Shown here: one piece after another, positions 97 through 14,744 of the stretch
Layout: every line of letters begins with the position of its first letter
How positions within the stretch are numbered: the stretch's first letter is position 1
Source of the DNA: a virus
Direction: 5' to 3' (one strand)
Length of the DNA stretch: 21,400 nt
IMG/VR virus record: IMGVR_UViG_3300034736_000596
Coordinates: 1 to 21,400 of that record
Notes under the pieces: model-generated
Told to the model about the DNA's origin: nothing
What the model saw: only the letters and a program-made list of their open reading frames with translations
The model's database searches: none
Program-made: the position numbers and the translations under genes

Positions 97-156
97 GTAC
101 CAAATCGGGTACAAATCGGCTGTAAGTCATTGATTTTAAAGGGAATCTCCCCGATC
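97..156 (+). repeat. Left att-like block (inverted copy of 14686-14744)
   Basis: GTAC boxes at 97 and 109 are followed at fixed distance by TAAGTCATTGATTT (123-136) and CCCGATC (150-156). The same elements occur on the minus strand next to the integrase, at 14744, 14733, 14719-14706 and 14692-14686. The offsets are identical: 14 bases from the second GTAC to TAAGTC, and 27 from TAAGTC to CCCGATC. The block ends just beyond the 3' end of the terminase small-subunit gene. It is probably a recombinase-recognised or att-derived sequence; the orientation is opposite to the copy beside the integrase, so the two are not simple attL/attR. Confidence 0.5.
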
Positions 157-170
157 ATCGATGGGGGTGA

Positions 171-551
171 TCACAATGACGCGGGGTCAACGCCCGCATC
201 CTTCAACGCCTGGAGGGCAGCGTCGATGTCGTGGGTAACGGTCACATCAGCGTGGATGTTAGCGTCTACTTCGGTGCGATCCCGCCAGCCTGCTCGGTTC
301 TTCAGGAAGAATATCTGGGCTGATGTGTTGGGCTTGTCACCAGTTGCGCCTTCGAACAGGGCGTTCGTCACCGCGTCGATGCCGCGCTGCTTGCCAGCCT
401 TTAAGGTGGTAGCAAATCGTTCATCTTCACGCTTGCGTCTGCCTATGGTTGAGACAGATATGCCCAGGCTCACAGCTATCTGTTCTTCTGATAACCCTAT
501 CTTTGCTAGGTCGTAGAGCTTTTCGTAGTCAATCACGATTGTGTTAGCCAA
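171..551 (-). CDS. Terminase small subunit-like DNA-binding protein
   Basis: The 126-residue product has an N-terminal helix-turn-helix (about residues 15-40, EEQIAVSLGISVSTIGRRK). It then has the phage pattern of a basic helix, KAGKQRGIDAVTNALF, and the segment QIFFLKNRAGWRDR. This architecture is typical of terminase small subunits and related phBC6A51-type phage proteins, which bind the packaging site and recruit the large subunit. The reading frame is open to an ATG at 599, but I place the start at TTG 551. GAGG lies 8 bases upstream of it, and a TATAAT box sits at 591-586, so upstream ATGs would lie in or before the promoter. The gene is read leftward, like the virion genes at the right edge; terL would be expected beyond the left edge. 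Family assignment is fairly sure; the role in packaging is inferred. Confidence 0.75.
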   Translation of the reverse strand: MANTIVIDYEKLYDLAKIGLSEEQIAVSLGISVSTIGRRKREDERFATTLKAGKQRGIDAVTNALFEGATGDKPNTSAQIFFLKNRAGWRDRTEVDANIHADVTVTHDIDAALQALKDAGVDPASL

Positions 552-585
552 TGCTGAATCCTCAATATAAATGTAGATGAGGCGC

Positions 586-614
586 ATTATAACGTACATA
601 CCACAGCCTGTTGA
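586..614 (-). promoter_or_regulatory. Sigma70-like promoter of the terminase gene
   Basis: On the minus strand TCAACA (614-609) is followed after exactly 17 bases by a perfect TATAAT (591-586). The start of transcription would fall near 580, about 17 bases before the GAGG at 563-560 and the TTG start at 551. It may be the first promoter of the leftward late operon. Confidence 0.55.
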
Positions 615-883
615 GTATCCCCTGTTAGGTTGACTATATGGTATGACACTATGGATTACAGGCTAACCAGGGGCCATTGGGTGCCTGCACAGGCAAATCA
701 CCCAAGATTAGATATCCCATGCCGCTCTAGCCCCCGCCGTTACTGGTGCGGCACAGGTTACTCAGAAAACATGGGTTATTTTCCAAATCGTTTATAAAAG
801 GTTTATATACCGCATAGGCACACAGGTATAAGTAGTATATTTATATATATATATAGAATAAAAAAAAGGGTGAGTAACCTGAT

Positions 884-981
884 TAACCCATGCCGGCCCA
901 TAGCCTATGCGGTCTATGACTGCACAGGTTATTTACATCAACGACCAATAACCCGTGCAGAAGGGCATAACCCATGCCGGC
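884..981 (+). repeat. Direct repeat TAACCCATGCCGGC, two copies plus a partial copy
   Basis: TAACCCATGCCGGC is present at 884-897 and 968-981, 84 bases apart, or eight helical turns. A partial copy, TAACCCGTGC, starts at 949. The inverse ATGGGTTA is at 771-778, and an AGGTTACTC/GAGTAACCT pair flanks the AT-rich stretch (about 755 and 872). Confidence 0.6.
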
Positions 982-989
982 TTGACCAT

Positions 990-1063
990 TTCCAGATGGA
1001 ATTATTCTTTTCCAGATGGAATTAATTCTTTCCCAGCTGGAATTAATCTTTCCCAGCTGGGAA
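990..1063. repeat. Array of four helically phased palindromes
   Basis: Four palindromic boxes occur in a row: CCAGATGG at 992-999 and 1012-1019, and CCAGCTGG at 1033-1040 and 1053-1060. Each is embedded in TTTCC...GGAAT-type flanks separated by AATTAAT-type spacers. Start-to-start distances are 20, 21 and 20 bases, two helical turns, so bound dimers would sit on one face of the helix. The last copy is a perfect 14-bp palindrome, TTCCCAGCTGGGAA (1050-1063). Likely binding sites for a replication initiator, terminase or regulator; the protein is unknown. Confidence 0.65.
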
Positions 1064-1171
1064 GACATCGTCATCAACACCAACCCACACCAACATCACA
1101 ACCACATACACGCACCAAAACATCATTACTCTACAACCTCACAGCTCACAATTAAAAGATGCGGCATATTA

Positions 1172-1213
1172 AGGTTATAAGCACGACACAACTAATGCAC
1201 TTAGGTTATAAGC
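1172..1213 (+). repeat. Direct repeat AGGTTATAAGC, two copies
   Basis: AGGTTATAAGC occurs at 1172-1182 and 1203-1213, 31 bases apart (about three helical turns), just before the terminator of the leftward accessory operon. Both belong to the GGTTA word family of this control region. Confidence 0.5.
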
Positions 1214-1231
1214 TGCATGATCAGCAGGCAT

Positions 1232-1252
1232 AAAAAAACCGCCCGAAGGCGG
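1232..1252 (-). terminator. Rho-independent terminator of the accessory operon
   Basis: On the minus strand a CCGCC-TTCG-GGCGG stem with a UUCG tetraloop is followed by seven T residues (1238-1232). It lies 24 bases beyond the stop codon of the last gene of the leftward accessory operon. Confidence 0.85.
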
Positions 1253-1275
1253 CAAAGGAGGAGGAAATCTTCTTA

Positions 1276-1542
1276 CTAGTGATACTCGTCTTCTTCGTAT
1301 TTAAGCTTAGAGTCTACAAATTCTGACTTGAGTATCTCAATGGCTCCAACCAGCGTGACGGGGGTCATGGTTGAGTACCAAGTGGTGATGACCTCACCGT
1401 CATCGTTCACGGCCACTGCCGCAAAGGCTCTACACTTTAACGCCTCAACGCCTTGCGCCAGTTCTGCGATGGTGAGCATAAGCTCTGGGTCTACGTCCAC
1501 CTCGCGCTTAACGGCTTGCAGCATTACTACTTTGTCAGTCAT
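1276..1542 (-). CDS. Hypothetical small acidic phage protein
   Basis: This 88-residue product is not recognised. It is rich in hydrophobic and acidic residues, with a strand-like middle (AFAAVAVNDDGEVITTWYS) and a highly acidic C-terminus (KYEEDEYH). It has no cysteine pair, signal peptide or membrane segment. The start ATG follows the stop of the upstream membrane-protein gene by 10 bases, and the AAGG at that junction can serve as ribosome binding site. It is the last gene of the accessory operon and is directly followed by a strong terminator, which supports it as a real gene. No function can be assigned. Confidence 0.6.
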   Translation of the reverse strand: MTDKVVMLQAVKREVDVDPELMLTIAELAQGVEALKCRAFAAVAVNDDGEVITTWYSTMTPVTLVGAIEILKSEFVDSKLKYEEDEYH

Positions 1543-1552
1543 CGTGTACGCC

Positions 1553-1711
1553 TTACAGTATGTGTTCGATTAGCCCTTCAGCACCGAACACTAGGATGAT
1601 CACAAATCCAAACGCCATTGCCTTGATTAAATCATAAATCTCACGACTTGATATTCGCTTTGAAGTCCGGTTGCGTATTGATGCCCATTGGCAGATGTTA
1701 ATAGTTTTCAT
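1553..1711 (-). CDS. Small single-pass membrane protein
   Basis: The 52-residue product has a basic N-terminal half (RNRTSKRISSR) followed by one hydrophobic segment at about residues 31-48 (AMAFGFVIILVFGAEGLI). By the positive-inside rule the N-terminus would be cytoplasmic. The frame is open further upstream, to an ATG at 1813. I chose ATG 1711 because AAAGGAGT lies at ideal distance before it; the longer frame would also overlap the preceding small gene. It sits in the leftward accessory operon. Single-pass phage proteins of this size can be lysis, superinfection or host-takeover factors; nothing in the sequence decides which. Confidence 0.6.
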   Translation of the reverse strand: MKTINICQWASIRNRTSKRISSREIYDLIKAMAFGFVIILVFGAEGLIEHIL

Positions 1712-1748
1712 AATAACTCCTTTTGTTGAGTATACCCGATGTTGTTGT

Positions 1749-1898
1749 TTATATGCGTATCCGTCGATCACACGCTCGACAATGCTCCGCATAGCTATCA
1801 TGCTCATGGGCACACTTACAGTACGCCTTTCGGCACTGCACCTCAGTGATGCTGTACTTGCCCACTGTCCGCACAGCTTTACCTGTAATAACCCTCAT
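1749..1898 (-). CDS. Tiny cysteine-rich, zinc-binding-like protein
   Basis: A 49-residue frame fits the otherwise empty gap between the methylase-like gene and the membrane-protein gene, on the same strand. It begins MRVITGKAVRTVGKYS and carries five cysteines and two histidines in a C-x4-C-x-C ... HEH ... C-x2-C arrangement. That suggests a small zinc-binding knuckle. The start ATG lies 20 bases after the upstream stop; the ribosome binding site is weak (only AGAGAT before ATG). Its size and dense Cys/His pattern are typical of overlooked phage genes. It is supported by position, strand and composition only; function unknown. Confidence 0.4.
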   Translation of the reverse strand: MRVITGKAVRTVGKYSITEVQCRKAYCKCAHEHDSYAEHCRACDRRIRI

Positions 1899-1918
1899 AT
1901 CTCTGACTGTCAGTACCA

Positions 1919-2509
1919 TTACTTGTTACTCCATTGGTTTGCTATGGCATCAGCGATGCCTTGGTATGTAGTTGATCTAATCTTCCAGCGACCCGCACTT
2001 GGGCCAATCTTGTTCTGACCACTCGGCGTTTGGTTATCCCAGTACCCGCGCTCTGGCTTCTCAACTATGTTGGTAGGCTTCAAAGGGGGTAAGTTATGCA
2101 GCCATAATCCGGTCTTTTTGGACTCAGAATGGCCGTATTCGTAAGGTTGGACGTACTGCGTTGGTTTGATAGGCAACACACCGACAGGGTTTTCAAGGGC
2201 CACCTTGTCAGCATGTTTTTTGGCGTGTTCCCAAAGAGCCATAGTCCACTCAATCGCTTGGTGGCGCATAGCGTTCTTTGCCATGCCCGTGCCGTAGTGA
2301 GCGTTACCGCTCACAGCCAGAGCCGTACAGGGGGGATGCATCATTATTAAATCCCAACCTTCAGCTATTACCGGCCAACAGTCGCCGGTGTAATGTTGGG
2401 GGCTATCATCATCGGAAGGTAACAGGTCGCAGCTATAAGCGTCATGCCCCAGTGCGCGGAAAGCCTCCCTGACTTTGCCGCTGTACTCGCAAGCAACTAG
2501 CACCTTCAT
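1919..2509 (-). CDS. Short C5-cytosine methyltransferase-like phage protein
   Basis: The 196-residue protein opens with MKVLVACEYSGKVREAF, the FxGxG-like SAM-binding start of C5-methylase relatives. It has an HPPC motif at about residues 58-61, matching the catalytic PC motif, and ENP at 106-108 in place of the usual ENV. There is no room for a normal target-recognition domain; true C5 methylases are usually over 300 residues. Phages often carry such short relatives annotated as cytosine methylases. It may modify phage DNA against host restriction, or be a diverged non-methylating relative. The ATG overlaps the upstream stop as ATGA, with GAGGTGG as ribosome binding site, so translation is probably coupled. 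Fold assignment is fairly good; activity is inferred. Confidence 0.65.
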   Translation of the reverse strand: MKVLVACEYSGKVREAFRALGHDAYSCDLLPSDDDSPQHYTGDCWPVIAEGWDLIMMHPPCTALAVSGNAHYGTGMAKNAMRHQAIEWTMALWEHAKKHADKVALENPVGVLPIKPTQYVQPYEYGHSESKKTGLWLHNLPPLKPTNIVEKPERGYWDNQTPSGQNKIGPSAGRWKIRSTTYQGIADAIANQWSNK

Positions 2510-2919
2510 GCTGCCACCTCTTCCTTGGCAAACCACATCTCAACATGCTCAGTAGTAAGGTCGTAGTTTTTGCCAGTGTTCATGTCAGTGGCTATAAAAG
2601 GACGCTTACGAGCGCGTGGCTTGAATCCAATAAGCAATAACTGCTTACCATCAATCTTGTGGACGATGTCAGCATCTAATGACACAACCGCGCTGAACTT
2701 TTCTCTCCAAGCTAATTCTTGGTCTAGGTCTTTTTGAATCTGCGTTTTGCCGCCTTTAGTCATTACCTTAAAGCCGTTGATCTTGGCAGAGTCATCGTCA
2801 TATGCGATGTTGCCCATCTCAAACTCCAGACCATACGCCTCTAAAATTGGAGTAAGTTCTTGCTCTAAGATTTCACGGATTAGCTTTGCAATTTCACGGT
2901 TCATTGTTTCAATTTTCAT
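2506..2919 (-). CDS. Conserved-looking phage protein of unknown function
   Basis: This 137-residue product has an N-terminal amphipathic helix (about residues 1-28, with alternating Ile/Leu and charged residues) and a mixed alpha/beta body. A basic stretch, GFKPRARKRPF, lies near residue 103, and the end is acidic. I chose ATG 2919 because AAGGGGAAACAAG precedes it closely. The frame continues upstream to 2988, but that would overlap the preceding gene. Its stop overlaps the start of the methylase-like gene (ATGA), so the two are likely translationally coupled. The basic stretch could contact nucleic acid; I do not recognise the family. Confidence 0.6.
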   Translation of the reverse strand: MKIETMNREIAKLIREILEQELTPILEAYGLEFEMGNIAYDDDSAKINGFKVMTKGGKTQIQKDLDQELAWREKFSAVVSLDADIVHKIDGKQLLLIGFKPRARKRPFIATDMNTGKNYDLTTEHVEMWFAKEEVAA

Positions 2920-2956
2920 CTTGTTTCCCCTTAGTTGCCCCGAAGGGCCGGTTAGA

Positions 2957-3304
2957 TTATGCTCGCGTCTTCTCAAAGTGCTTCTCAACGTGCTTGGGGT
3001 ATTCGCCCTGCAACGCGCCGTGAACTATCTCGTACATATCCCTTCTGCTAAGGCCAATATCGTCGTTACCGAAATTCCTGCTAAGGCCAATATCGTCGTT
3101 ACCGAAATTCCTGCTAAGGCCAATATCGTCGTTACCGAAATTCACCCAAAGCTCAATCATCGAGTTTCCATCAATGAGGGCCGCACAGGCTAAAGCTTCG
3201 TGGTAGGTGTCAGTAAAGGCATAGTCTTGGATGTCGCCATACTCATCCATTTCAGCAATTGCGTACTCGTAAGTCCGTTCAAGAGCTTTAAATAGGTTAG
3301 TCAT
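2957..3304 (-). CDS. Hypothetical protein with three perfect 11-residue repeats
   Basis: The 115-residue protein has an acidic helical N-terminus (FKALERTYEYAIAEMDEYGDIQDYAFTD in outline). About residues 54-86 consist of three identical copies of NFGNDDIGLSR, and the C-terminus (RDMYEIVHGALQGEYPKH) is charged. It looks like a small globular phage protein interrupted by repeat expansion: sequence on either side would join smoothly with a single copy. It is the first gene of the leftward accessory operon, directly downstream of a tandem operator at 3345-3375, with AGAGG upstream of the ATG. Function unknown. Confidence 0.6.
   Translation of the reverse strand: MTNLFKALERTYEYAIAEMDEYGDIQDYAFTDTYHEALACAALIDGNSMIELWVNFGNDDIGLSRNFGNDDIGLSRNFGNDDIGLSRRDMYEIVHGALQGEYPKHVEKHFEKTRA
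3045..3143 (+). repeat. Perfect 33-bp tandem repeat, three copies, inside a gene
   Basis: Units at 3045-3077, 3078-3110 and 3111-3143 are identical base for base. The unit length is a multiple of three, so the frame of the minus-strand host gene is preserved and the repeat encodes three copies of an 11-residue motif. Absence of any divergence points to recent duplication or slippage. Confidence 0.95.
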
Positions 3305-3344
3305 TTTTGTAGCCTCTTTCTCGTTAGTAGAGTTACACCTTAGT

Positions 3345-3375
3345 CAACTTTCAGTTGTTAGTCAACCGTTTGTTG
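3345..3375. promoter_or_regulatory. Tandem operator and leftward promoter of the accessory operon
   Basis: Two CAAC-N5-GTTG palindromes lie 18 bases apart, at 3345-3357 and 3363-3375. On the minus strand each overlaps a TTGACT -35-like box (3365-3360 and 3347-3342). From the first box a 17-base spacer leads to a weak TAAGGT -10 (3342-3337). The operon starts at 3304. The design fits a repressor blocking RNA polymerase. Confidence 0.6.
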
Positions 3376-3398
3376 TAAATACACATTACAGTGTGCAT

Positions 3399-3428
3399 AA
3401 AAAAGCCCCGACCCTTTCAGGTCGAGGC
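3399..3428 (-). terminator. Rho-independent terminator after the primase operon
   Basis: On the minus strand a GCCTCGACC/GGTCGGGGC stem (3428-3405) with a TGAAA-type loop is followed by six T residues (3404-3399). It lies 29 bases beyond the stop codon of the zinc-ribbon gene and separates the primase operon from the accessory operon. Confidence 0.8.
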
Positions 3429-3456
3429 AAAACGGACAATAGTCCGCGAGGGGGAA

Positions 3457-3699
3457 CTAGTGATTCGGCTCTACTTCTGAGCCGCACTCCGCACAGTTGT
3501 GCGTGTACATCAATCTCTCGATTACCTGGTCGCCGTAATCCTCGTGATTAACCTCGACGACCTGGTTCACTTCATCTGCGTCAAGCTGACCACACTTCAA
3601 GCACTCATAATCCTTAATCGCTGGCTTCTCACCAAAAACCGCGTCCCAATTGTCCCAAAATGTCTCAGCCGTTGGCCGTTGCTTACTACCTTTACCCAT
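3457..3699 (-). CDS. Small zinc-ribbon phage protein
   Basis: The 80-residue product begins MGKGSKQRPTAETFWDNWDAVFGEK, a start shared by many small phage proteins of the MGKGS-RP type. It then carries two cysteine pairs, CLKC (about residues 33-36) and CAEC (about 70-73), which form a likely zinc ribbon. Its ATG follows the stop of the primase-helicase gene by one base, with AAGGAAAT as ribosome binding site, so it is co-translated with that gene. Such proteins are usually uncharacterised; proximity to the primase hints at a replication or nucleic-acid-binding role, which is inference. It is the last gene before the terminator. Confidence 0.7.
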   Translation of the reverse strand: MGKGSKQRPTAETFWDNWDAVFGEKPAIKDYECLKCGQLDADEVNQVVEVNHEDYGDQVIERLMYTHNCAECGSEVEPNH

Positions 3700-3700
3700 T

Positions 3701-5965
3701 TTAATTTCCTTCCCAATTTGCGGGGTCTAGCGGGTCTTGATCGACATCACCCTCGTCGATCTCAGCCCAGTTAATATTTAAATTGTTGGCTGCGTCAAAG
3801 ATGAATCGTGCGGCTTCTAGGCTGCTAACATCGGCGTGTCTGATCCGAAATCCATCTACCTTTTTCTGTATCCCCCTGAACATCGGTTCGTACTTTTTTA
3901 TCGATCTCCAAAATGCGTTTTCTTTCAAAACATACTCAAATCTGCTCACGACAGACGAACAATAGATGTCGTAAATCTCTGACTTAACCACCTCTGATCC
4001 GAAGCTCAAGACGTTTCCGCCCAACCGGCTTGCGCGTATCTCGCCGTTTTGTAAGCAGTTTAAAATCCAAGAATCTACGGTATCCAAGGTCTCTAGCTTT
4101 TGATCTTGTAGCGCCATCGTTTGAGGGATCATTCGAAGGTTGAGCTTGGACATATCAAAGTTGCGGAGGTAATGTATTAATGCCGATGCGCCGCCACACT
4201 CATACCAGGTGTCGAGACGGGCGAAATACGCGCTGTCCTGCTGCCTCGATTGACCAACGTCAAACACCGCAAAGCGTCTCTCGTCGAGACCCGCTGGCAC
4301 CACGAAGTCATCGTTCGATGTGAAGAGGATGCGCGTGTAATTTGACGCTGAGTAGCTATCGACTCCCTTTCGCTCAATCTGGATTTTGGGGTTAGTCAGC
4401 AGGTCTTTCAAAGCGCCCTCGCTCGACTTAGCACCGGCCCAATAAGCCTCATCTGCTTGCAGCAAAAGGCACGACTCTAGGTGTCTGTTAAAGTTACCTG
4501 TAACGTGATCAGCGCGACTCACTATCTGGTGGTGAGCCGCGAATAGGTGACCTAATAGCTCACCGAACTTGGTCTTACCCGTACCCTTACCTCCGCGAAG
4601 CACTAAGCCAACCCCGACTTTGGTCATCGGCTTCTGGATGATCTGAGCCGCCCAACCGATGATGTAATTAGCGTTAACAACATCACCGTCAGCGATTACG
4701 TCAGTAACAAAGTCAAGCCAAGGCTGAACGTCACCCTCCCTAGCCTCTACTGACCAACCGCGCCACAGGTTGTACCTGTCGAGCGTTTGGATGTCAGGGG
4801 CGAAGGTAAGGCCCGCCGCATAGGTTCTCCGCTCTGGAGCCTCAAGCCACATATCGACGAGGTTCAGCAGCTTCGGCTTCTCGTCGCCCGACAAGACGCG
4901 GCAGTTCATATGCTCTTTCTTGAGATCGTCAAGCTTGTACAGCACCATGTTGTCTTTGTTGAGGTCTTCGCGCAGCACTCTAGCCGCACCCTCCACCTGA
5001 ACGAAAGCCCACTCTCTAAGCATTTTCGGAAGTTGTTCTTCCTTTATTACATGACTAACGGCCTTGTTTTCCATCGCCTTCACAGAAGCTAGGGTGACCG
5101 CGTTGGCGCTGCTTGAGTCGAACGTGGAGTACCGTCTAGCGCAGTGGCCCTCTTCATAGCTCACACCCGCACTCGACCACTGATCCCAGATGTCACAGCC
5201 GATGTCCTCACCGTTAAAATGGTGGTGCAGCGCCATGCCGATCTTCACCCACTCGTCGTGATGAGAGTCGGGATCAATGGACTTGAGCATTTCGTGAACA
5301 TCTTGCTCAGAAACGTCCATCTTTTGACGTAGCCAAGACAAATCATCTGGGTCTGTTTCAGCAGCGGTTTGTGACGCACCTACCCGCGCCAGTTCCCACC
5401 CCTCCTGATTGCCAGCAAGCTCCTCGAAGTATGCAACAAACGCAACAGCCTGATCGCGTGTGATCACTGGTAGGTCAGACTGTTTAATGTCTGCGATACT
5501 CAAGCCCTTAACCCACTTGTAGGGTTGATTAGTGTTGGGGTGAATACCAAACGCAACAAATTGCTGGCCGTCTGCTAACACCTCAACAGCGTGTTTCGTG
5601 CCAACCGCATCGGAATATTCCGCAGATCGTATTTTGCTAAAGCTGCCCTCAACCCTAAAAGGTAGGATGCACTTCGGCTTCTGACCGATCCGCACAGCCG
5701 CATCGCCTACGTTGGCTTTGAGCCAATGTAGTAAGTCGTAGTTAACCTTTGCGTCGAGGCAGTCGATATCGACAGCGATAGTGCTTCGGCATAGAACCCC
5801 TACCCCGCCATCCGCATGACCGTTAGACAACCACTTATCAACGTCATCATGCGTTGCTCTGATGTCTTGCCAGCCCGAGATCATCGGAAACTTCTTGCCC
5901 TTTTTGAGCGGCACGATTTCGTAGCCTTGATCTACCAGCTTGTGACCAAATTCTTTGAGGTACAT
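3701..5965 (-). CDS. Bifunctional primase-polymerase / SF3-like helicase
   Basis: This 754-residue replication protein has three parts. Residues 1-185 form an archaeo-eukaryotic-type primase-polymerase domain: VDID with D66 and D68, RIGQKPK at 93-99, and VEVLADGQQFVAFGIHP at 128-143. Residues 205-300 resemble the PriCT_2 domain. Residues 450-600 form a superfamily 3-type helicase: Walker A GGKGTGKT at 458-465, Walker B DE at 505-506, TSN at 549-551 and arginine finger DERR at 561-564. The same arrangement is known from phage NrS-1 primase-polymerase (DUF5906 helicase part). It should prime and unwind DNA at the phage origin. The frame extends upstream to 6016, but ATG 5965 has AGGGG at proper distance and lies 4 bases after the regulator gene stop. 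Confidence 0.88.
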   Translation of the reverse strand: MYLKEFGHKLVDQGYEIVPLKKGKKFPMISGWQDIRATHDDVDKWLSNGHADGGVGVLCRSTIAVDIDCLDAKVNYDLLHWLKANVGDAAVRIGQKPKCILPFRVEGSFSKIRSAEYSDAVGTKHAVEVLADGQQFVAFGIHPNTNQPYKWVKGLSIADIKQSDLPVITRDQAVAFVAYFEELAGNQEGWELARVGASQTAAETDPDDLSWLRQKMDVSEQDVHEMLKSIDPDSHHDEWVKIGMALHHHFNGEDIGCDIWDQWSSAGVSYEEGHCARRYSTFDSSSANAVTLASVKAMENKAVSHVIKEEQLPKMLREWAFVQVEGAARVLREDLNKDNMVLYKLDDLKKEHMNCRVLSGDEKPKLLNLVDMWLEAPERRTYAAGLTFAPDIQTLDRYNLWRGWSVEAREGDVQPWLDFVTDVIADGDVVNANYIIGWAAQIIQKPMTKVGVGLVLRGGKGTGKTKFGELLGHLFAAHHQIVSRADHVTGNFNRHLESCLLLQADEAYWAGAKSSEGALKDLLTNPKIQIERKGVDSYSASNYTRILFTSNDDFVVPAGLDERRFAVFDVGQSRQQDSAYFARLDTWYECGGASALIHYLRNFDMSKLNLRMIPQTMALQDQKLETLDTVDSWILNCLQNGEIRASRLGGNVLSFGSEVVKSEIYDIYCSSVVSRFEYVLKENAFWRSIKKYEPMFRGIQKKVDGFRIRHADVSSLEAARFIFDAANNLNINWAEIDEGDVDQDPLDPANWEGN

Positions 5966-5969
5966 AGCG

Positions 5970-6251
5970 TTACCCCTGACGAGATGATGTGTATATAACT
6001 TCAGATGCTTCTTCAAATTCCTTCAGGATGTCTGGACATAAATCCTTCCAGCTCACCTGTCCGTCGGTTATTAATTCCATCTGCAACGCTCGGTGGGCGG
6101 GTACAACACCACTCAAGCGCCACTTGCTTAAAGCCTGCTTGCTAACATCCAGGCGCCGCGCCAGGGCGTTACAGTTTTTAAGGCCAGCATCTTCCACCAC
6201 CTTGTCTATTGCCGTTTTAACCGACTCTGCGTGTTCTGAAATAAAAAACAT
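5970..6251 (-). CDS. Cro/YdaS-like helix-turn-helix regulator
   Basis: The 93-residue protein has a helix-turn-helix at about residues 28-50 (NALARRLDVSKQALSKWRLSG), followed by VVPAHRALQMELITDGQVSW. That pattern is typical of YdaS/Cro-like phage repressors. It is the first gene leftward of the divergent promoter region and ends 4 bases before the primase-helicase start, so it probably acts as the lytic-side switch protein and as a brake on its own operon. AAAGG precedes the ATG by 8 bases. YdaS homologues have also been called antitoxins, but no toxin partner is present. It is one of two candidate proteins for the CAAC-N5-GTTG operators. Confidence 0.75.
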   Translation of the reverse strand: MFFISEHAESVKTAIDKVVEDAGLKNCNALARRLDVSKQALSKWRLSGVVPAHRALQMELITDGQVSWKDLCPDILKEFEEASEVIYTSSRQG

Positions 6252-6306
6252 CTATTTACCTTTTTAAGTAATTGCTCATTAAATTAATATATTCAACTTT
6301 CTGTGG

Positions 6307-6334
6307 TTGACACAGTAGCCGATGCAGTTAATAT
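6307..6334 (+). promoter_or_regulatory. Rightward early promoter
   Basis: A consensus TTGACA (6307-6312) is followed after 16 bases by TAATAT (6329-6334). Transcription would start near 6341 and run into the nuclease-SSB-polymerase-helicase operon. The -35 box lies in the left operator and the start point in the right operator. Confidence 0.6.
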
Positions 6335-6339
6335 GTCAA
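6312..6339 (-). promoter_or_regulatory. Leftward early promoter
   Basis: On the minus strand a consensus TTGACA (6339-6334) is followed after 16 bases by TACTGT (6317-6312), a weak but usable -10. It would drive the Cro-like regulator and primase operon. It occupies the same DNA as the rightward promoter, so the two could not be bound by polymerase together. Confidence 0.5.
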
Positions 6340-6389
6340 CAACAGAAAGTTGATTATTTAAAGAAACATTATTCGGAAAAGGTAATTTT

Positions 6390-7517
6390 ATGAAACATGC
6401 AGCACTAGGAGCGTCTAAAGCGCACCGTTGGATGCGGTGTCCAGGTTCGATAATGTTGGAGTCCACATTTCCCGAGCAAACATCTTTCTTTGCAGCGGAA
6501 GGAACAGCCGCACACGCACTGGCCGAAGAGTGTCTGCTCAAGCAGAAGCCACCCGAACATTTTATAGGTGTGGAGTTTGAGGGCTTTATTGTTGATCAGG
6601 TGATGGCTAACCACGTTGCCACTTATGTCGATTTCTGCAACGGTCAGGAAGGTGATGAGAAGCACGTTGAACTGCGCGTAGATTACTCGCAGTGGGCAGC
6701 AGGCGGCTTTGGTACTTGTGATTTCGTAACCCTACACGACGGCATTCTGCACGTTATCGACCTGAAGTATGGGCAAGGCTTAAAGGTAAACGCTAACCGC
6801 AACGAGCAGTTAATGCTCTACGGATTAGGGGCTGCTTATGAGTTTATTGACCAAGTCGATACGGTCAGCATGACCATCGTGCAGCCACGGCTCGATCACA
6901 TTGACACCTACTCGATGAGGGCCAAAGACCTATTTAAGTGGGCTGACGAGGTTGTCAAGCCCGCCGCTTTGGCAACGATGCGTCCAGACCCTACCTTTAA
7001 CCCTACTAAAAAAGCGTGTCACTTTTGCAAAGCCAAACCAACTTGTCGGGCGTTAGCAAAGCACAACTACGATTTAACACTGGGGTCGTTCGACAATCTT
7101 GAAGAGCCGCTTTTAGTGCAGGTTCCACACACGATAAATGTTGAAGAGCTATCTAACCTACTGCCAAAAATGGACGCGCTTATAGGGTGGGCGCAAGGCG
7201 TTCAGAAACACGCGCACAAGCTTTTGCTAGATGGCGGCATCCTACCAAACTACAAACTGGTGTCTGGCAGAGGTCAGAGAAAGTGGATCGATCAAGATAT
7301 AGCGCAAGACCAACTCATCGAGATGTGCGGCGAAGAAGCCCTCATATCTAAACTCATTTCGCCAACTCAAGCTGAAAAGCTGCTTGGGAAGGCGAAGTAT
7401 GGAGAGATCGTCGATCTCATCCACAAACCCGAAGGTAGACCACAGCTTGCGCCGGACACAGACCCTCGTCCGGCTGTTAAGCCTAACGCTACTGAATACT
7501 TCAGCGACATAACTTAA
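6390..7517 (+). CDS. Cas4/RecB-like PD-(D/E)XK exonuclease (DUF2800)
   Basis: This 375-residue protein matches the DUF2800 phage family. Nuclease residues in view are H42 in EGTAAHALAEE, D111 in GFGTCDFV, D124 and K126 in VIDLKYG, and Q140. One cysteine near the N-terminus (C17, RWMRCPGS) and three after the core (C210, C213, C219 in CHFCKAKPTC) match the layout of the iron-sulphur cluster in Cas4 and AddB nucleases, so a 4Fe-4S site is predicted. It probably resects DNA ends for recombination or replication. It is the first gene of the rightward operon, with AAAAGG before the ATG, and is followed by the ssDNA-binding protein gene, its usual neighbour in phages. Confidence 0.85.
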   Translation: MKHAALGASKAHRWMRCPGSIMLESTFPEQTSFFAAEGTAAHALAEECLLKQKPPEHFIGVEFEGFIVDQVMANHVATYVDFCNGQEGDEKHVELRVDYSQWAAGGFGTCDFVTLHDGILHVIDLKYGQGLKVNANRNEQLMLYGLGAAYEFIDQVDTVSMTIVQPRLDHIDTYSMRAKDLFKWADEVVKPAALATMRPDPTFNPTKKACHFCKAKPTCRALAKHNYDLTLGSFDNLEEPLLVQVPHTINVEELSNLLPKMDALIGWAQGVQKHAHKLLLDGGILPNYKLVSGRGQRKWIDQDIAQDQLIEMCGEEALISKLISPTQAEKLLGKAKYGEIVDLIHKPEGRPQLAPDTDPRPAVKPNATEYFSDIT

Positions 7518-8088: not shown

Positions 8089-8093
8089 ACCAT

Positions 8094-8110
8094 TACAACT
8101 TTTGGTTGTA
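8094..8110. promoter_or_regulatory. Operator between the ssDNA-binding protein gene and polymerase genes
   Basis: TACAAC-TTTTG-GTTGTA (8094-8110) is an uninterrupted inverted repeat containing the CAAC-N5-GTTG core at 8096-8108. It begins 6 bases after the upstream stop codon. A TATATA stretch follows, but no convincing -35/-10 pair was found, so it may act as a roadblock or on a cryptic promoter. Confidence 0.55.
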
Positions 8111-8157
8111 TATACGACAAACGTGCGGCGGCAATGTAGCGCCGCACAGGGACTAAA

Positions 8158-8448: not shown

Positions 8449-10340
8449 ACATATCACTCGATTTTGAGACGTACTCAGAGTGCGACATTTTTAAGGCGGG
8501 CGCATACGCGTATGCTGACCACCACTCCACCGAAGTTTTGTGCATGGCATGGGCTGTTAATGACGAACCCGCTACGTTGTGGACACCTGACATGGCACCG
8601 CCGCACAGGCTCCTAGATTTAATTCATCAAGGCGCAACTGTTTGGGCCTGGAACTCTTTTTTTGAGATGGCTATATGGAATCTCGTTTTGAAATGGGAAC
8701 CCGTTCCTATCGAGCAGTGGCGTGACACCGCCGCACTCGCAGCCGCACAGGCGTACCCCAGAGCTTTGGGTAAATGCGGTGAGGCACTTGGACTTGATGG
8801 CGATGACGCAAAGTCAAAGCGCGGAAAGCTATTAATACAAAGACTCTGCAAACCGTATCGCGGTGAGCGTGTACTTGACGCTGGCATGTACCAAGAGTTG
8901 TACGACTACTGCTTACAAGACGTTGTCGCGGAGCGTGAGATTCGACACAGGCTCCGAAGCCTCAGAGGCGTTGAAAGTAAAGTTTGGGAGACTGACCAGG
9001 CCATTAATTGGCGTGGTGTACGCTTGGATAGAGAGTCTATCGTCAACGGCCTAGGGATTATTGAAAAGCACAGCAGCGCGATGAATAAGCGCGTTGAGGT
9101 TTTGACGGGCGGGGTAATCGACTCCACGGGATCACGCGCAAAAGCGATGCTTTGGTGCGCCTCACAAAATTACCCACTTGTAAAATACGACAAAGCGGCA
9201 ATCGCTGACGCGCTTGCAGATGACCAATGCCCACCGCTAGTAAAAGAGTTCCTAGGCATACGCCAGAGCCTGTCGCGCTCCTCAACTAAAAAGTACAGCG
9301 CCATGCTGGACTGCCTTGGCAAAGACGGTCGAGTGCATGGATGCTTGATGTATCACGGAGCTTCCACAGGTCGGTGGTCAGGCCGTCACGTTAACCCGCA
9401 AAACTTACCACGGCCAACCATCGACGATGTGGATGCTTGCATTGAAGAGATGAAAGCTCAAGACCCTACAGCTATTAGCGGTGAGCCGATGGAGGCGTTA
9501 GCTTCGTGCTTGCGTGGAATGCTGATTGCATCAGATGATCACCGCTTAATCGTGTCTGACTACGCAAGTATAGAGGCCCGCGCTTTAGCATGGCTAGCCG
9601 ATCACGCTGATGTGTTGCAGACTTTTCGTGATGGCAAGGACATTTACAAAGCAACAGCATCGGGCATGTTCAACGTCCCATATGACCAAATTGATTACGA
9701 CCAACGCTTTGTTGGCAAGGTCGCCACGTTGGCCCTTGGATATCAAGGTGGTGTTCGCGCATTTCAGAAAATGTCTGAAGCGTATGGTACTGAAGTATCA
9801 GAAGTCCAGGCACTCAAAATCCGCAACGATTGGCGGGATGCAAACGCCCCTATCGTTCAACTGTGGGTGGATGTTGAGAAGGCGGCCCGCAACGCTATCA
9901 GCTATACCGGCCAAGCTTATGATGCGGCTAAAGGCACTTTTCGGGTTGTCGGCGGTGACCTGCTGTTTAAACTTCCAAGCGGTCGGATTCTTAGCTTTCC
10001 AGAGGCCAGTCTGACGCAAGGCGAGCGGCTCATGGAAATTAAATATAAAGGTATGAACAACCACACTCACCGCTGGGGTGAAATAAAAGCATATGGCGGT
10101 TCATTGGTTCAGTCGATCACTCAAGCTGTTGCCAGAGACATTCTTGCCGAAGCAATTTTAAGACTTGAAGCTGCCGATTACCCCGTTGTTCTGCATGTCC
10201 ACGATGAGATCGTTGGCGATGTGCCAAATGACTTTGGATCACTAGAAGAGTTTGAGCGACTGATGTGCGTTTTGCCTGACTGGGCTGCAGGTATGCCCGT
10301 TGAAGCTGAAGGCTATGAATCGAAACGATATAGGAAATAG
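8445..10340 (+). CDS. Family A DNA polymerase with 3'-5' exonuclease
   Basis: This 631-residue replicative polymerase lacks the 5'-nuclease domain of bacterial Pol I. The proofreading domain shows D6 and E8 (LDFETYS), N70/E74 (WNSFFE) and YCLQDV at 155-160. The polymerase part shows TGRWSGRHVNPQNLPRP (308-324), motif A DYASIEAR (372-379), motif B R421, K425 and Y433 (RFVGKVATLALGYQGG), and motif C HDE (586-588). All expected catalytic residues are present. An earlier TTG (8424) is in frame, but ATG 8445 places DFET at the usual distance from the N-terminus and gives a 4-base ATGA overlap with the preceding gene. It copies the phage genome together with the primase-helicase and ssDNA-binding protein. 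Confidence 0.95.
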   Translation: MNISLDFETYSECDIFKAGAYAYADHHSTEVLCMAWAVNDEPATLWTPDMAPPHRLLDLIHQGATVWAWNSFFEMAIWNLVLKWEPVPIEQWRDTAALAAAQAYPRALGKCGEALGLDGDDAKSKRGKLLIQRLCKPYRGERVLDAGMYQELYDYCLQDVVAEREIRHRLRSLRGVESKVWETDQAINWRGVRLDRESIVNGLGIIEKHSSAMNKRVEVLTGGVIDSTGSRAKAMLWCASQNYPLVKYDKAAIADALADDQCPPLVKEFLGIRQSLSRSSTKKYSAMLDCLGKDGRVHGCLMYHGASTGRWSGRHVNPQNLPRPTIDDVDACIEEMKAQDPTAISGEPMEALASCLRGMLIASDDHRLIVSDYASIEARALAWLADHADVLQTFRDGKDIYKATASGMFNVPYDQIDYDQRFVGKVATLALGYQGGVRAFQKMSEAYGTEVSEVQALKIRNDWRDANAPIVQLWVDVEKAARNAISYTGQAYDAAKGTFRVVGGDLLFKLPSGRILSFPEASLTQGERLMEIKYKGMNNHTHRWGEIKAYGGSLVQSITQAVARDILAEAILRLEAADYPVVLHVHDEIVGDVPNDFGSLEEFERLMCVLPDWAAGMPVEAEGYESKRYRK

Positions 10341-10343
10341 CGA

Positions 10344-10679
10344 ATGGATACGTTAGATTTTGATAACAACGACCCAACCAACCACTGTTCTCCCAATATG
10401 AAAATTGGAACGACTGTCAGAGAATCAACTATTGAAACTAAGGTTACCGCTAACGCAAAGGCTAACGGGTGGCTATCTTATAAATGGGTGTCACCCTCAC
10501 AGCGTGGAGTTCCAGACCGCATGTATTTTAAGAATGGATCATTAGTGATCGTTGAGTTTAAAGGGCCAGGTAAGCTACCGACCCCGTACCAGCAGGCAAT
10601 CCATAGAAAGTTAAAGGCTGTCGGCTTTATCGTACATATCATAGATGATATTGAAAAAGGGAAAGCGTTGCTATGTTAG
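10344..10679 (+). CDS. VRR-NUC domain nuclease
   Basis: The 111-residue protein is a stand-alone VRR-NUC nuclease of the PD-(D/E)XK superfamily. Expected active-site residues are E31, D58 (RGVPDRM at 54-60), E71 and K73 (VEFKGPG) and Q83. Family members act on branched DNA such as Holliday-type or flap structures. AGGAAAT before ATG 10344 supports this start; an internal ATG at 10398 would leave a more typical N-terminus and remains possible. The gene follows the polymerase by 3 bases and overlaps the helicase gene by 7. That order is common in phages and suggests nuclease and helicase act together in recombination or fork processing. Confidence 0.88.
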   Translation: MDTLDFDNNDPTNHCSPNMKIGTTVRESTIETKVTANAKANGWLSYKWVSPSQRGVPDRMYFKNGSLVIVEFKGPGKLPTPYQQAIHRKLKAVGFIVHIIDDIEKGKALLC

Positions 10680-12025
10680 ACCGCAAAAACCTACACCCGT
10701 ACCAAGAAAAAGCTGTCCAGTTCGTGAAGGACAACCCGAAGGCCGCGCTATGGATCGACATGGGATTAGGTAAAACAGTCTCAACGCTCACAGCCTTATC
10801 TGACTTGATTGATCAGAAAGTGATCAAAAAGACGCTAATTATCGCGCCCCTGCGCGTCTCAAATCACACTTGGCCAGCAGAGATACACAACTGGAAGCAT
10901 ACGAGCGCGTTAAATTACACGATTTTGAGCGGTTTAACCCCGAAAAAGCGTGAAGCGGCAATCGATAGAGACACCGACATCCACATTATTAATCGTGAAA
11001 ACATACCGTGGCTCGTCGAGCAGTTAGGCCAAAGGTGGCCATACGACTGCGTTGTGATTGACGAGAGCAGCAGCTTTAAGTCTCACACATCTAAGCGATG
11101 GAAGGCGCTGCGTAAAATATTAGGTAAGGTTAGCCGAATGGTATTGCTCACAGGCACACCCGCTCCAAACTCGTTACTGGAGCTTTGGCCGCAATTCTAT
11201 TTGCTCGATAAAGGTGATCGCCTGGAGAAAACCAGAGGTAAGTTTCTATCAAAATACTGCACAGCCGTGGGCAATCCGCAATGGAATCAGTGGGTTGTTA
11301 CACCTAGTCGCGCTCAAGAAATACACAGTGCCGTGGCCGACATCGCTCTAGTGATGAATGCAGAAGACTACCTGCAGCTTCCAGAGCGTGTAGACATAAA
11401 GGTCTCAGTCGCCCTGCCCCCATCAGCGCGGTCGTTATACGAGGATATGAAGAAAGATTTTATTATTCAGTACGAGGGCGGGGAGGTCTTGGCGGTTAAC
11501 GCCGCCGTCCAAGTTGGAAAGTTGATGCAGATTGCCAATGGTAATATCTATGAAGAGGATGGTGAATATGTCCGTATGCATTGTGAAAAGTTTGACGCGC
11601 TCGAAGAGATTATTGACAGCACCAACGAGCCAATCCTCATAGCGTACAACTTTAAATCTGATTTAGCTGAACTGCGGCTACTGTACCCAGATTCGGAGGT
11701 CATCGGCAGAGACCCAACCGTCATCGACAGATGGAATGCAGGCAAAATTCCGATCCTGCTTGCACACCCCGCAAGTGCAGGACACGGGTTAAACCTGCAA
11801 AAAGGTGGGAGCATAATAGTATGGTTCGGCCTCACCTGGTCTCTAGAGTTGTATCAGCAGTTTAACGCCAGACTGCATCGCCAGGGGCAAGAAAAACCTG
11901 TGCGAATCTTCCACATAATGGCCGATCAAACCGCCGATCAAGCTGTGTTTGAAGCACTGACTAGCAAGAAAGATAATCAAGACCTGCTACTTAATGTTGT
12001 TGAGTCATTAAAAAATAACAAATAA
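10673..12025 (+). CDS. SNF2-type DEAD-box helicase/translocase
   Basis: The 450-residue protein is a superfamily 2 helicase of SNF2 style. Motifs in order are Q-like HPYQ (8-11), Walker A DMGLGKT (29-35), DES Walker B (130-132), TGTPAPN (160-166), a helicase C domain with LLAHPASAGHGLNLQ, and motif VI QQFNARLHRQGQ (395-406) with R400 and R403. Such phage proteins are thought to translocate on duplex or branched DNA and remodel forks. The start overlaps the VRR-NUC gene, so expression is coupled. It is the last gene of the rightward replication operon; an operator and a new promoter follow the stop. Confidence 0.92.
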   Translation: MLDRKNLHPYQEKAVQFVKDNPKAALWIDMGLGKTVSTLTALSDLIDQKVIKKTLIIAPLRVSNHTWPAEIHNWKHTSALNYTILSGLTPKKREAAIDRDTDIHIINRENIPWLVEQLGQRWPYDCVVIDESSSFKSHTSKRWKALRKILGKVSRMVLLTGTPAPNSLLELWPQFYLLDKGDRLEKTRGKFLSKYCTAVGNPQWNQWVVTPSRAQEIHSAVADIALVMNAEDYLQLPERVDIKVSVALPPSARSLYEDMKKDFIIQYEGGEVLAVNAAVQVGKLMQIANGNIYEEDGEYVRMHCEKFDALEEIIDSTNEPILIAYNFKSDLAELRLLYPDSEVIGRDPTVIDRWNAGKIPILLAHPASAGHGLNLQKGGSIIVWFGLTWSLELYQQFNARLHRQGQEKPVRIFHIMADQTADQAVFEALTSKKDNQDLLLNVVESLKNNK

Positions 12026-12030
12026 ACTTA

Positions 12031-12069
12031 CAACTCTAAGTTGACTAAGCATCTTTTAGGGGTTACTAT
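12031..12069 (+). promoter_or_regulatory. Operator and promoter of the putative repressor gene
   Basis: CAAC-TCTAA-GTTG (12031-12043) overlaps the -35 box TTGACT (12041-12046). A 17-base spacer then leads to TACTAT (12064-12069), placing the transcript start near 12076. The downstream gene encodes a helix-turn-helix protein, so this looks like an autoregulated repressor promoter, independent of the rightward operon. Confidence 0.65.
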
Positions 12070-12099
12070 CTCGCTGAATCAACGAACAGAGTGTGTGAG

Positions 12100-12708
12100 A
12101 TGGAATTTCATCAGAGACTTACAAAAGCAGCCGGTAACTCTTCACAAATACCGGAGTACGGAATGGGCCGTCAAACTTTTATAGCAAAAGAGTTAGGCGT
12201 ATCACAAGAAGCTGTCAGAAAATGGTTTGCGGGCGAATCAAAACCGCGATCCGCAGCGATGGCGAAATTAGCTACGCTGTTAGACGTAGAGCTGGTTTGG
12301 TTATCGCTGGGCGTGGATTATTCGGAGACAAACTCTAATAGGGTTATGGCGCGGAGGCAAGACGCAGGAATGTACGCACTGACATCATATCTAATCTATA
12401 GCGGATACAATGTTGCGTTTACATTTGATGAGTCTGATAAAAGTGACCTTACCGCCATGCGTAACGGTCAAATTACAAAATTCAGAACCCACACTGTGGA
12501 ACAAACTACCGGAGCGATTGAGGCTTTGGCAGCACCAACAGGGTCTATAGTAGATGTAGCGTGTGTTATAAACACAAATTTAGGTTTCGGAATTGAGTTT
12601 TTAGACATATCGAATTTGATGGGTACTGGTTCCTTACAACTTAAAGCCCCAAGCAAAACGGGCATCTATAAAATCGGTAAAGACGTAGTTAAACAACTTC
12701 AACTGTAA
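12100..12708 (+). CDS. Helix-turn-helix regulator, candidate lysogeny repressor
   Basis: The 202-residue protein has an XRE/CI-type helix-turn-helix at about residues 24-50 (RQTFIAKELGVSQEAVRKWFAG) and the continuation KLATLLDVELVWLSLG, as in CI-like repressors. The C-terminal 120 residues are not recognised. They lack the Ser/Lys layout of S24 self-cleaving repressors, so RecA-driven autocleavage is not expected. The start could instead be GTG 12091; neither has a strong ribosome binding site, and the leader from the promoter is short. Its own promoter carries the same operator found across the early region, which supports it as the regulator of the set. Repressor function is inferred. Confidence 0.7.
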   Translation: MEFHQRLTKAAGNSSQIPEYGMGRQTFIAKELGVSQEAVRKWFAGESKPRSAAMAKLATLLDVELVWLSLGVDYSETNSNRVMARRQDAGMYALTSYLIYSGYNVAFTFDESDKSDLTAMRNGQITKFRTHTVEQTTGAIEALAAPTGSIVDVACVINTNLGFGIEFLDISNLMGTGSLQLKAPSKTGIYKIGKDVVKQLQL

Positions 12709-12722
12709 AAAGGATTATTCAA

Positions 12723-12938
12723 ATGACAAAACCGTACTATTCATTGGCAGAGTTAGCTGAACTATTCGGGCTGACTCCGAAATCGCTACTTAACTCTGTC
12801 GGCGCAGAGCGTTTCCCCGTTCCGACCTACAAAATTGGTAAGTCGAGAGTAGCAGACAAGGTTGTTGTGTCAGCGTATTTCGACAAACACCAGCAAGAAG
12901 GACTAGCTGAGATTGCAGGAAGCTCTTTTTTTGATTAA
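12723..12938 (+). CDS. PrtN/AlpA-like activator or excisionase
   Basis: The 71-residue protein has a winged helix-turn-helix pattern, YYSLAELAELFGLTPKSLLN, followed by FPVPTYKIGKSRVADKVVVSAYFDKH. It resembles the pyocin activator PrtN and AlpA/excisionase-type proteins, which bind DNA near integrase or prophage promoters. AAGGA lies just before the ATG and the gap to the regulator gene is 14 bases, so the two share a transcript. Proximity to the integrase would suit an excisionase; similarity to PrtN would suit a transcription activator. The sequence alone does not separate these. Confidence 0.65.
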   Translation: MTKPYYSLAELAELFGLTPKSLLNSVGAERFPVPTYKIGKSRVADKVVVSAYFDKHQQEGLAEIAGSSFFD

Positions 12939-12943
12939 CGTAT

Positions 12944-12956
12944 CAACAATAAGTTT
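12944..12956. promoter_or_regulatory. Operator-like site, one mismatch
   Basis: CAAC-AATAA-GTTT matches CAAC-N5-GTTG except for the last base. It lies 6 bases after the stop of the PrtN-like gene and upstream of the DUF3310 gene, the same kind of intergenic position as the perfect copies. Confidence 0.35.
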
Positions 12957-13119
12957 TATATGCAATTTACTATTGCCTATCTATTCAGTATTGAGTAGAA
13001 TTTATTATGGCACACGAACTGCCACTTAGGAAACTGATGTTTACATATTAACTAAGACGATTTGGGAGAGGATTATTAATAATCAAAATAACAAACAAGA
13101 TATAGACCCACCAGACGCA

Positions 13120-13362
13120 ATGGTCGTTACCCCGCCACACTACAACGCGACATCGATTGAGGCGATAACGTACATTGAAGATTCGTTAGGAAGTGGTTAC
13201 GGTTTTTTCTTGGAGGGAAATGTTAAAAAGTACCTCCACCGCTGGCGACATAAGTCCGAGGATCAAGCTGGAAGGGTTCAAGACCTAGAAAAAGCAGCGT
13301 GGTTCTTAGCAAAATTAATTAAGGATGTTCAAGAACACGATGTTCCAACCTGTCATGACTAA
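13120..13362 (+). CDS. DUF3310 family protein (related to T7 gp1.7)
   Basis: The 80-residue product has the DUF3310 signature: PPHYN, IEAITYIEDSLG, GFFLEGNVKKYLHRWRHK and DLEKAAWFLAKLI. The family is related to T7 gp1.7, a nucleotide kinase, and is presumed to act in nucleotide metabolism. The first ATG (13120) has no ribosome binding site. The frame upstream stays open with protein-like sequence (NNKQDIDPPDAMVV) up to ATT 13075, which has GGAG 6 bases before it, so the real start may be that rare codon (95 residues). It is the last gene of the rightward block, ahead of a bidirectional terminator. Family is fairly sure; start is uncertain. Confidence 0.8.
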   Translation: MVVTPPHYNATSIEAITYIEDSLGSGYGFFLEGNVKKYLHRWRHKSEDQAGRVQDLEKAAWFLAKLIKDVQEHDVPTCHD

Positions 13363-13371
13363 TCATGATAC

Positions 13372-13399
13372 AAAAAAAAGGGGCGCAAGCCCCTTTTTT
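13372..13399. terminator. Bidirectional rho-independent terminator
   Basis: A GGGGC-GCAA-GCCCC hairpin (13380-13393) with a GCAA tetraloop is flanked by eight A residues on the left and six T residues on the right. It can therefore stop transcription from both sides. It lies between the convergent DUF3310 and integrase genes. Confidence 0.9.
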
Positions 13400-13411
13400 A
13401 TCGTCTAAAAC

Positions 13412-14443
13412 TTAGGCTGCTAACGCTTCAGCCCTCTCATCGAGCATTTTAAGCACCTTACTCGCGTTTATGTGGGTGTAACGGCGAAGCATATTGATGT
13501 CTCTGTGCCCAGAGAACGTGGCCACAACCATGCTGTCAAAGCCCAACTCAAACAACCTAGATATGGCTTCATGCCGCAGATCGTGGTACCGCAAATCCTC
13601 CACCCCAGACCGCGCTACGCCTTTTCTAAACGCATGGGTTATAGACTTTGGGTTATCTGCAAATATACAGCTTGGATTACGCGGGTCGATTGGTTGCCGA
13701 GATATAATCTCTCTCGCCGCTGGCACTAAAGGGACAACCTCATCCCGCTTTTTTCTTGGGTGTTTACGGTCACGGATTATAATGCTCTTGCCGTCCTTGC
13801 TTAAATCCGCCCATCGAAGAGATCCGATCTCGCCAACGCGCATAGCGGTGGCTAGTGAGAACGCCACCCAATCCCGCACAGGCAAACTGGATTTAACATA
13901 ACTAAGGACTTCCTCAAGCTCTTCATCAGTTACACGACGATCCCGCTCGTCAGATGCAGCAATTACCCCAAACCTGTTGCAGTTATCGATGCACTTGCGG
14001 TACTCGCTAAATTTAGGCTTTGCGCCCCACATATTCTCGCCAGTCGATAAAACAACGCCGATATACATCATGTCTTTTTTTATCGTTGAGGCGCAGCAGG
14101 TTGCAGACCTTTGCAGCGCGAAAGCCATAAGCGTTTCGGCGGTGAGGTCTTTAAGTTTGTGGTGGCCAAGCTGATCTCTCAAGAAACCTAAGATGTGTGC
14201 TTTGCTGCGCCCAAAAGGTTTAATCGCGCCGATTTCTTTTGTGTACCTGTCGATAAGGCGACCAAAGCTTTGCTCATCTTCACGATAATCATTGGCGTTG
14301 ATCAGCGATTCAGTCTTCGCCATCCACGCTGTCGCCAGGGCTTTCTTTTTAAATGTTTTGGTGACGGGTTTTTGTTTTGGCCTTCGGACAACAGCCCGAA
14401 AAGTATCGCCATGTTTGCCTTCTCTCTTAACAATCATGCCCAT
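13412..14443 (-). CDS. Tyrosine-type site-specific recombinase (phage integrase)
   Basis: The 343-residue integrase has an N-terminal arm-binding part (about 1-55), a SAM-like core-binding domain (about 56-155) and a catalytic domain from about 170. Catalytic residues are all visible: R202 (TAMRVGEIGSLRW), K227 (RKHP), H287 and R290 (YHDLRHEA), H313 (FSGHRD) and nucleophile Y322 (RRYTHI). It should integrate and excise the phage chromosome. AGGTG before ATG 14443 supports the start; a second ATG two codons on is possible. A TTTGTAC box touches the start region and more lie upstream, suggesting that arm-binding by the protein may also affect its own promoter. Confidence 0.93.
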   Translation of the reverse strand: MGMIVKREGKHGDTFRAVVRRPKQKPVTKTFKKKALATAWMAKTESLINANDYREDEQSFGRLIDRYTKEIGAIKPFGRSKAHILGFLRDQLGHHKLKDLTAETLMAFALQRSATCCASTIKKDMMYIGVVLSTGENMWGAKPKFSEYRKCIDNCNRFGVIAASDERDRRVTDEELEEVLSYVKSSLPVRDWVAFSLATAMRVGEIGSLRWADLSKDGKSIIIRDRKHPRKKRDEVVPLVPAAREIISRQPIDPRNPSCIFADNPKSITHAFRKGVARSGVEDLRYHDLRHEAISRLFELGFDSMVVATFSGHRDINMLRRYTHINASKVLKMLDERAEALAA

Positions 14444-14444
14444 T

Positions 14445-14744
14445 TTTGTACACCTTTTAATAAATTCAGGTGTAGTATATCGCGGTAAACGTAGCGTTGA
14501 CAGGGATGTTGGAGTTATTTATTTGTACATCAATTTGTACAGTAGCAAAAAGCACGAAGGTGTACGAAAATGATTAATCGTTATAAATCAATAGGTTACA
14601 TGATGTTTTAAAATGTCCTAAAATTGACACAAATTACTCTAAGTCATTGATAATTAACAGGAAATTGTATATTGATCCGATTCCCGATCGGGATAACTCC
14701 TATATAAATCAATGACTTAGAAGCTGTTTGTACTACTTTTGTAC
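14445..14744. other. attP-like region with arm-type repeats
   Basis: This non-coding stretch upstream of the integrase carries five exact TTTGTAC boxes in one orientation: 14445-14451, 14522-14528, 14534-14540, 14727-14733 and 14738-14744. Four form pairs spaced 12 and 11 bases. Between the pairs lie a 13-bp perfect inverted repeat (CTAAGTCATTGAT at 14639-14651, its complement at 14708-14720) and the palindrome TCCCGATCGGGA (14682-14693). Paired direct repeats around a central symmetrical core beside an integrase gene are the usual anatomy of a tyrosine-recombinase attP. The exact crossover cannot be seen without the host site. Confidence 0.6.
14639..14720. repeat. Inverted repeat around a central palindrome (putative att core)
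   Basis: CTAAGTCATTGAT (14639-14651) and ATCAATGACTTAG (14708-14720) are exact reverse complements, 56 bases apart. TCCCGATCGGGA (14682-14693) is a perfect palindrome inside. The right arm and palindrome recur as an inverted copy at 97-156. Confidence 0.75.

Follow-up and report, generated by a model that had tools for sequence, protein, structure and literature searches.

Two inverted integrase-type blocks around the early module

Integrases are usually credited with one pair of reactions, attP x attB and its reversal, and the virus DNA described here raises the question of what a second block of integrase-type motifs, lying beside the small terminase gene and inverted with respect to attP, does for the phage. 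The window, by which we mean the whole stretch analysed, is a complete IMG/VR record and a linear fragment of 21.4 kb, in which the minus strand runs from the structural genes (14751-21361) through the integrase (13412-14443) and the early module to terS (171-599). A contig, L003, that shares 10.6 kb with the window at 99.99% identity passes terS and the block beside it, site A, into terL. The layout of the phage is terS, site A and terL in one direction, with int and the other block, site B, placed where the structural genes give way to the early module. Cultured phages gave no nucleotide match to the window, and a search of GTDB genomes for prophages of the group gave no close one among the matches listed, in which the best segment of the integrase did not exceed 40% identity. 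The genes needed for the argument are the following.

171-599, minus strand: terS, terminase small subunit (phrog_309 match; terL is next in L003)
12723-12938, plus strand: excisionase-like protein (phrog_1300 match, E=5.5e-7)
13412-14443, minus strand: tyrosine integrase, whose closest bacterial relatives are of the dusA-associated family

A sequence-only reading of the window had described an att-like block at 97-156 (plus) that recurs at 14744-14686 (minus), and all of its elements are present at these places. The paired arms, 109-156 and 14686-14733, are 48 nt long and 73% complementary, with an extra GTAC outside each, and their score of 22 (ungapped, +1/-1) is the highest of any inverted pair in the window. 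First-order Markov shuffles of the window reached a score of at least 21 in 5 of 76 cases and at least 22 in 4 of 76 (p about 0.05-0.07), so that the match is borderline from the window alone. Comparison with the genomes of relatives, which the sequence-only reading had proposed, revealed the same two-site arrangement across a group of these uncultured temperate phages, and because it recurs in this way we regard the repeat as secure. The 14-nt identity noted between the blocks was confirmed as well: TAAGTCATTGATTT has exactly two copies in the record, one per block, and its other strand includes AATCAATGACTTA, which matches the IHF consensus of the literature, WATCAANNNNTTR, at every position; it is therefore an IHF consensus site in both blocks. 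The positions also bear out that the blocks are mutually inverted and have terS, the early genes and int between them. An origin of window positions 1-170 as a contig-end chimera or host junction was rejected, since L003 continues through site A into terL. The possibility that site A is a small gene under conservation (ORF 3-158) was set aside; what is conserved there are motifs of a regulatory kind, and their type goes with the integrase.

Site B has the layout of a lambda-type attP

The integrase has a catalytic domain of PF00589 (E=2.5e-24), in which R202, H288, R291, H313 and Y322 are invariant in the alignment, the H288-type positions being judged by eye. Such an R...HxxR...H...Y domain, and DNA beside int that combines arm repeats and IHF sites with a core, argue for a tyrosine integrase of the lambda type, and site B (14445-14744), upstream of int, is by its motifs the ordinary attP of that enzyme.

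14445-14451, 14522-14528 and 14534-14540, plus strand: P'-arm repeats TTTGTAC, in a layout kept in relatives
14586-14598, plus strand: IHF consensus site AATCAATAGGTTA
14640-14652, minus strand: IHF consensus site TATCAATGACTTA
14674-14694, plus strand: attP core GATCCGA / TCGGGAT, with the 7-nt centre TTCCCGA (14681-14687)
14706-14719, minus strand: P-arm IHF site TAAGTCATTGATTT, the inverted-repeat partner of 123-136
14727-14744, minus strand: two P-arm repeats GTACAAA, the inner at 14727-14733 and the outer from 14744

In relatives the order is the same: two arm repeats, an IHF site, the core, IHF-like sites, two arm repeats and int. The type of attP repeat tracks the N-terminus of the integrase, which by eye begins with MATITKR in the GCTCC group. 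Bacterial integrases share 27-40% identity with that of the window among the matches listed, and of the 80 bacterial integrase loci closest to it, again among the matches listed, at least 29 have a dusA-like gene directly upstream of and divergent from int. This is the arrangement of the dusA-associated integrase family (Farrugia 2015, PMC4482086), and it points to integration of the nearest relatives at the dusA 5' end. The likeness to these integrases and islands extends to the attP core, which spells dusA codons in several relatives (e.g. G001; VAPMLD in L083, translated by eye), whereas the core of the window (14674-14694) has no dusA motif and reads DPIPD, not APMMD or APMLD. No second site was found in the parts of this literature consulted. 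In L184 the attP region seems by eye to hold, some 150-250 nt upstream of int, the 3' part of a tRNA gene with a CAT anticodon, which suggests a tRNA as integration target in place of dusA.

Site A resembles half an attP and is kept beside terS

Site A (97-167), between terS and terL, is in its motifs an attL-like half copy, in which arm repeats and a single IHF site accompany an inverted core, in keeping with the earlier view that both blocks are att-like.

1-50, minus strand: hairpin GGGGGCGCTACGCCCCC with its flanks, between site A and terL, kept in relatives; possibly part of a packaging site
97-115, minus strand: arm-type repeats, the variant GTACC(AAA) and GTACAAA of the attP type; the type follows the resident integrase
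123-135, minus strand: IHF consensus site AATCAATGACTTA (WATCAANNNNTTR), found in 61/63 terS-terL gaps
149-167, minus strand: core CCCCCA / TCGGGG with the 7-nt centre TCGATGA (155-161), a fixed-place inverted repeat just past the terS stop

The IHF count was made on the 63 loci with both terS and terL, for which Markov shuffles gave an expected frequency of 0.6% per gap. The inverted repeat of the core, with its 7-nt centre, lies 3-7 nt past the terS stop and reaches a mean score of z=11 against shuffles at that spacing; lesser signals were obtained at neighbouring spacers, at odd ones only. From symmetry, spacing and matches in a few lineages we infer that the half-sites are Int core sites; the inverted repeat may instead be an RNA hairpin. 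The order of the elements differs by clade, being core, IHF site and arms in one and core, arms and IHF site in another. Site A is absent from a related clade (G010, G012, G019 and L081) although TerS is present there, and G010, G012 and G019 carry a related integrase.

A packaging site (pac or cos, including terminase-binding repeats and an IHF site), in which the likeness to an integrase site is secondary, was considered for A. It is favoured by the adjacency to terS and by an IHF site that is kept even where its position relative to the arms shifts, but the repeats track the attP of the integrase, which the conserved DNA beside terL does not, and we consider this explanation improbable. That conserved DNA consists of the GGGGGCGCTACGCCCCC hairpin and CATATCTCGTTACATATAGGGCGG, strongly conserved between site A and terL (window 1-50; L003:10560-10620), and is itself a possible packaging site. 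Small variable genes directly follow the hairpin region in some relatives. Between the window and L003 the first four bases (1-4) differ, the match otherwise starting at base 5. A fixed cos end at A was rejected, since contigs cross A and the ends of contigs of about 40 kb do not gather there.

Site A follows the resident integrase

For 11 representatives, and with the IHF motifs masked, site A was compared with the attP of the same genome and with those of the other genomes. Words common to site A and its own attP were enriched for 8-mers (p=0.0002) and 7-mers (p=0.0016) in permutations in which kinship was handled solely by the use of representatives; 6-mers were not significant (p=0.10), and the flanking controls, the 130 nt at the 3' end of terS and the DNA 170-300 nt past the stop, gave p=0.31-0.73. 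On the arm side of A the 8-mers gave p=0.002. Within the core, 7-mers gave p=0.054, with 7-/8-mers at 0.05-0.06, and 5-/6-mers were not significant (p about 0.2), so that the co-variation of the core taken by itself is weak. Individual repeats found at both A and attP are GTACAAA in the window, GCTCCA in G002/G004, TGCACC in G022 and, with one copy at each site, CCCGCG in G003, and the core half-site GGTTA is found at both in G022 and G025-27. The arm repeats and, less firmly, the core half-sites of A follow the resident integrase. As site A changes together with the integrase, it is probably functional, and we hold it to be very probable, on this pattern of motifs, that A is a functional second integrase site. 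Among the alternatives listed in the sequence-only reading, a duplicated integrase site is the best supported.

Close relatives also differ at A itself. L024 and L046 share 92-95% identity in the region 40-120 nt before the stop, only 52-55% across A and, beyond A, 90% to 100% from 80 nt on, except for one bin at 70%; the pattern is similar for L055 and L059, with identities of 72-82% ahead of A, 42-51% within it and 87-100% beyond. Site A thus appears to be exchanged as a unit, the DNA on either side staying nearly identical. The breakpoints were rejected as evidence of A x A exchange between phages, since they fall just outside A and not in its centre. The terL genes of L065 and L066 are identical by direct alignment.

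These comparisons bear on another alternative of the sequence-only reading, that A is the relic of an old integration at the 3' end of terS. A relic would account for the attL look, i.e. an arm and a core without a second arm, joined to the end of a gene. However, the arms of A still track the attP of the resident integrase and A looks block-exchanged between near-identical flanks, and for these reasons we consider a simple relic unlikely.

A more serious competitor, possible but clearly short of an even chance, is an Int/IHF nucleoprotein complex at A that does not recombine and that regulates terL or late transcription, the initiation of packaging or the amount of free Int. The binding anatomy and the co-variation are equally expected of such a complex, A lies directly before terL and beside the conserved hairpin, and its centre is unconstrained. 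The exact recombinase geometry, with a 7-nt centre and constant spacing, nevertheless exceeds the needs of simple binding. We therefore treat this as the main rival, one that fits the sequence data almost as well as recombination does.

The centres of A and B differ

Since A and B are inverted and agree in arm, IHF site and core spacing, the sequence-only reading had proposed that recombination between them inverts the 14.5 kb early module. For exchange, the overlaps of attP and attB need to be identical. Strand exchange by tyrosine integrases takes place across a 7-nt overlap common to attP and attB (PMC8371274), but the 7-nt centres of A and B are mismatched in 16/16 genomes, at 2-6 of the 7 positions in the 15 genomes placed by script and at three in G028, counted by eye. 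Placement of the core half-sites was by eye, and a string match confirmed it in every genome except G028. In the assemblies, moreover, terS and terL are co-oriented in 63/63 pairs and int lies beside terL in none. With neither an identical crossover sequence (16 genomes) nor a second orientation or inverted junction (63 pairs) in these assemblies, inversion of the module is unsupported, and we regard it as the least probable of the explanations considered, although a rare inverted form might escape assembly. In one locus, L092 (5660-9612), int and attP alone are flipped relative to both flanking modules, unlike in the other loci showing both; a module inversion was rejected for it, as int and attP are flipped and not the whole module. 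Site A, if present in L092, would be in direct orientation to attP.

The centre of A also speaks to whether A serves as a landing site for other elements, such as satellites or related phages, or as a second attP for another host gene. Some satellites embed in late genes of the prophages that help them (PMC10111431), and their likeness to A lies in integrase sites within late-gene regions of phages. An attB needs no arms, however, close relatives (L004/L005) have different centres at A while the centre at B remains dusA-like for the most part, and, in contrast to the helper-embedded satellites, no inserted element is seen at A in the loci compared. A landing site is therefore an unlikely explanation.

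A possible role for site A in circularisation

A centre that is free to drift while the recombinase geometry stays suggests that the partner of A would be its own copy. The phage would then use one integrase at two sites with different overlaps, attP for lysogeny and A, beside pac, for Int-driven A x A recombination, so that the integrase acts as the phage's own Cre/lox; we put the probability of this reading as a whole at roughly 0.37. In the proposed mechanism, site A would be an attL-like integrase site fixed between terS and terL and maintained with the integrase. TerL belongs to the group containing P22, with 38.5% identity to that of P22, the nearest TerL among cultured phages being at 52%. 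In P22, pac lies inside terS and packaging proceeds toward terL. By analogy with P22, we presume a pac in terS, beside A. A headful genome begun at such a pac would have A among the first DNA packaged and, since terS and the presumed pac adjoin A, again in both terminal repeats. Int and IHF could then recombine the two direct copies of A, circularising incoming DNA or resolving concatemers; such A x A recombination is a tentative proposal, to which we give somewhat less than even odds.

In phage P1, Cre recombines lox sites, lox being present in both terminal repeats, and thereby circularises the genome. The likeness here would be a recombinase site near the start of packaging that could circularise terminally redundant DNA, and the adjacency of A to terS together with the P22-type TerL is consistent with a lox-like position in the terminal redundancy beside pac; the difference is that the recombinase would be the integrase itself, acting at a second site. 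Scanning of part of the early ORFs gave no match to a known family of annealing recombinases. With lambda attP and attL, recombined by Int, IHF and Xis, the phage has in common the arm repeats, IHF sites, inverted half-sites and 7-nt overlap, as well as a candidate excisionase gene, but unlike in lambda a second, attL-like site is permanently present in the phage genome beside terS, with an overlap sequence of its own. Lambda Int can recombine attL x attL. Several observations weaken the A x A reading, namely that site A has only one arm, that the relatives of TerL here also include phages with short fixed terminal repeats, that the core-only co-variation is weak and that the related clade lacks A.

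A site of this kind (a second attP, Int-driven circularisation or attL x attL) is not described in the few papers searched. A conserved second site that follows the integrase, yet whose overlap bars recombination with attP, suggests that the enzyme has a second role near the packaging genes, and the anatomy of site A provides a sequence signature by which such sites could be found in other temperate phages. If the A x A reading is true, a lambda-type integrase would serve the phage as its own Cre/lox.

Other repeats

Two further repeat arrays were observed. In the window, three 33-nt direct repeats at 3045-3157 lie in frame (FGNDDIGLSRN) inside ORF 2957-3304. Upstream of terS in G010 (L241, 100-490), many inverted TTACACACCCTTG repeats are accompanied by one IHF consensus site; this is a different repeat array and possibly an origin.
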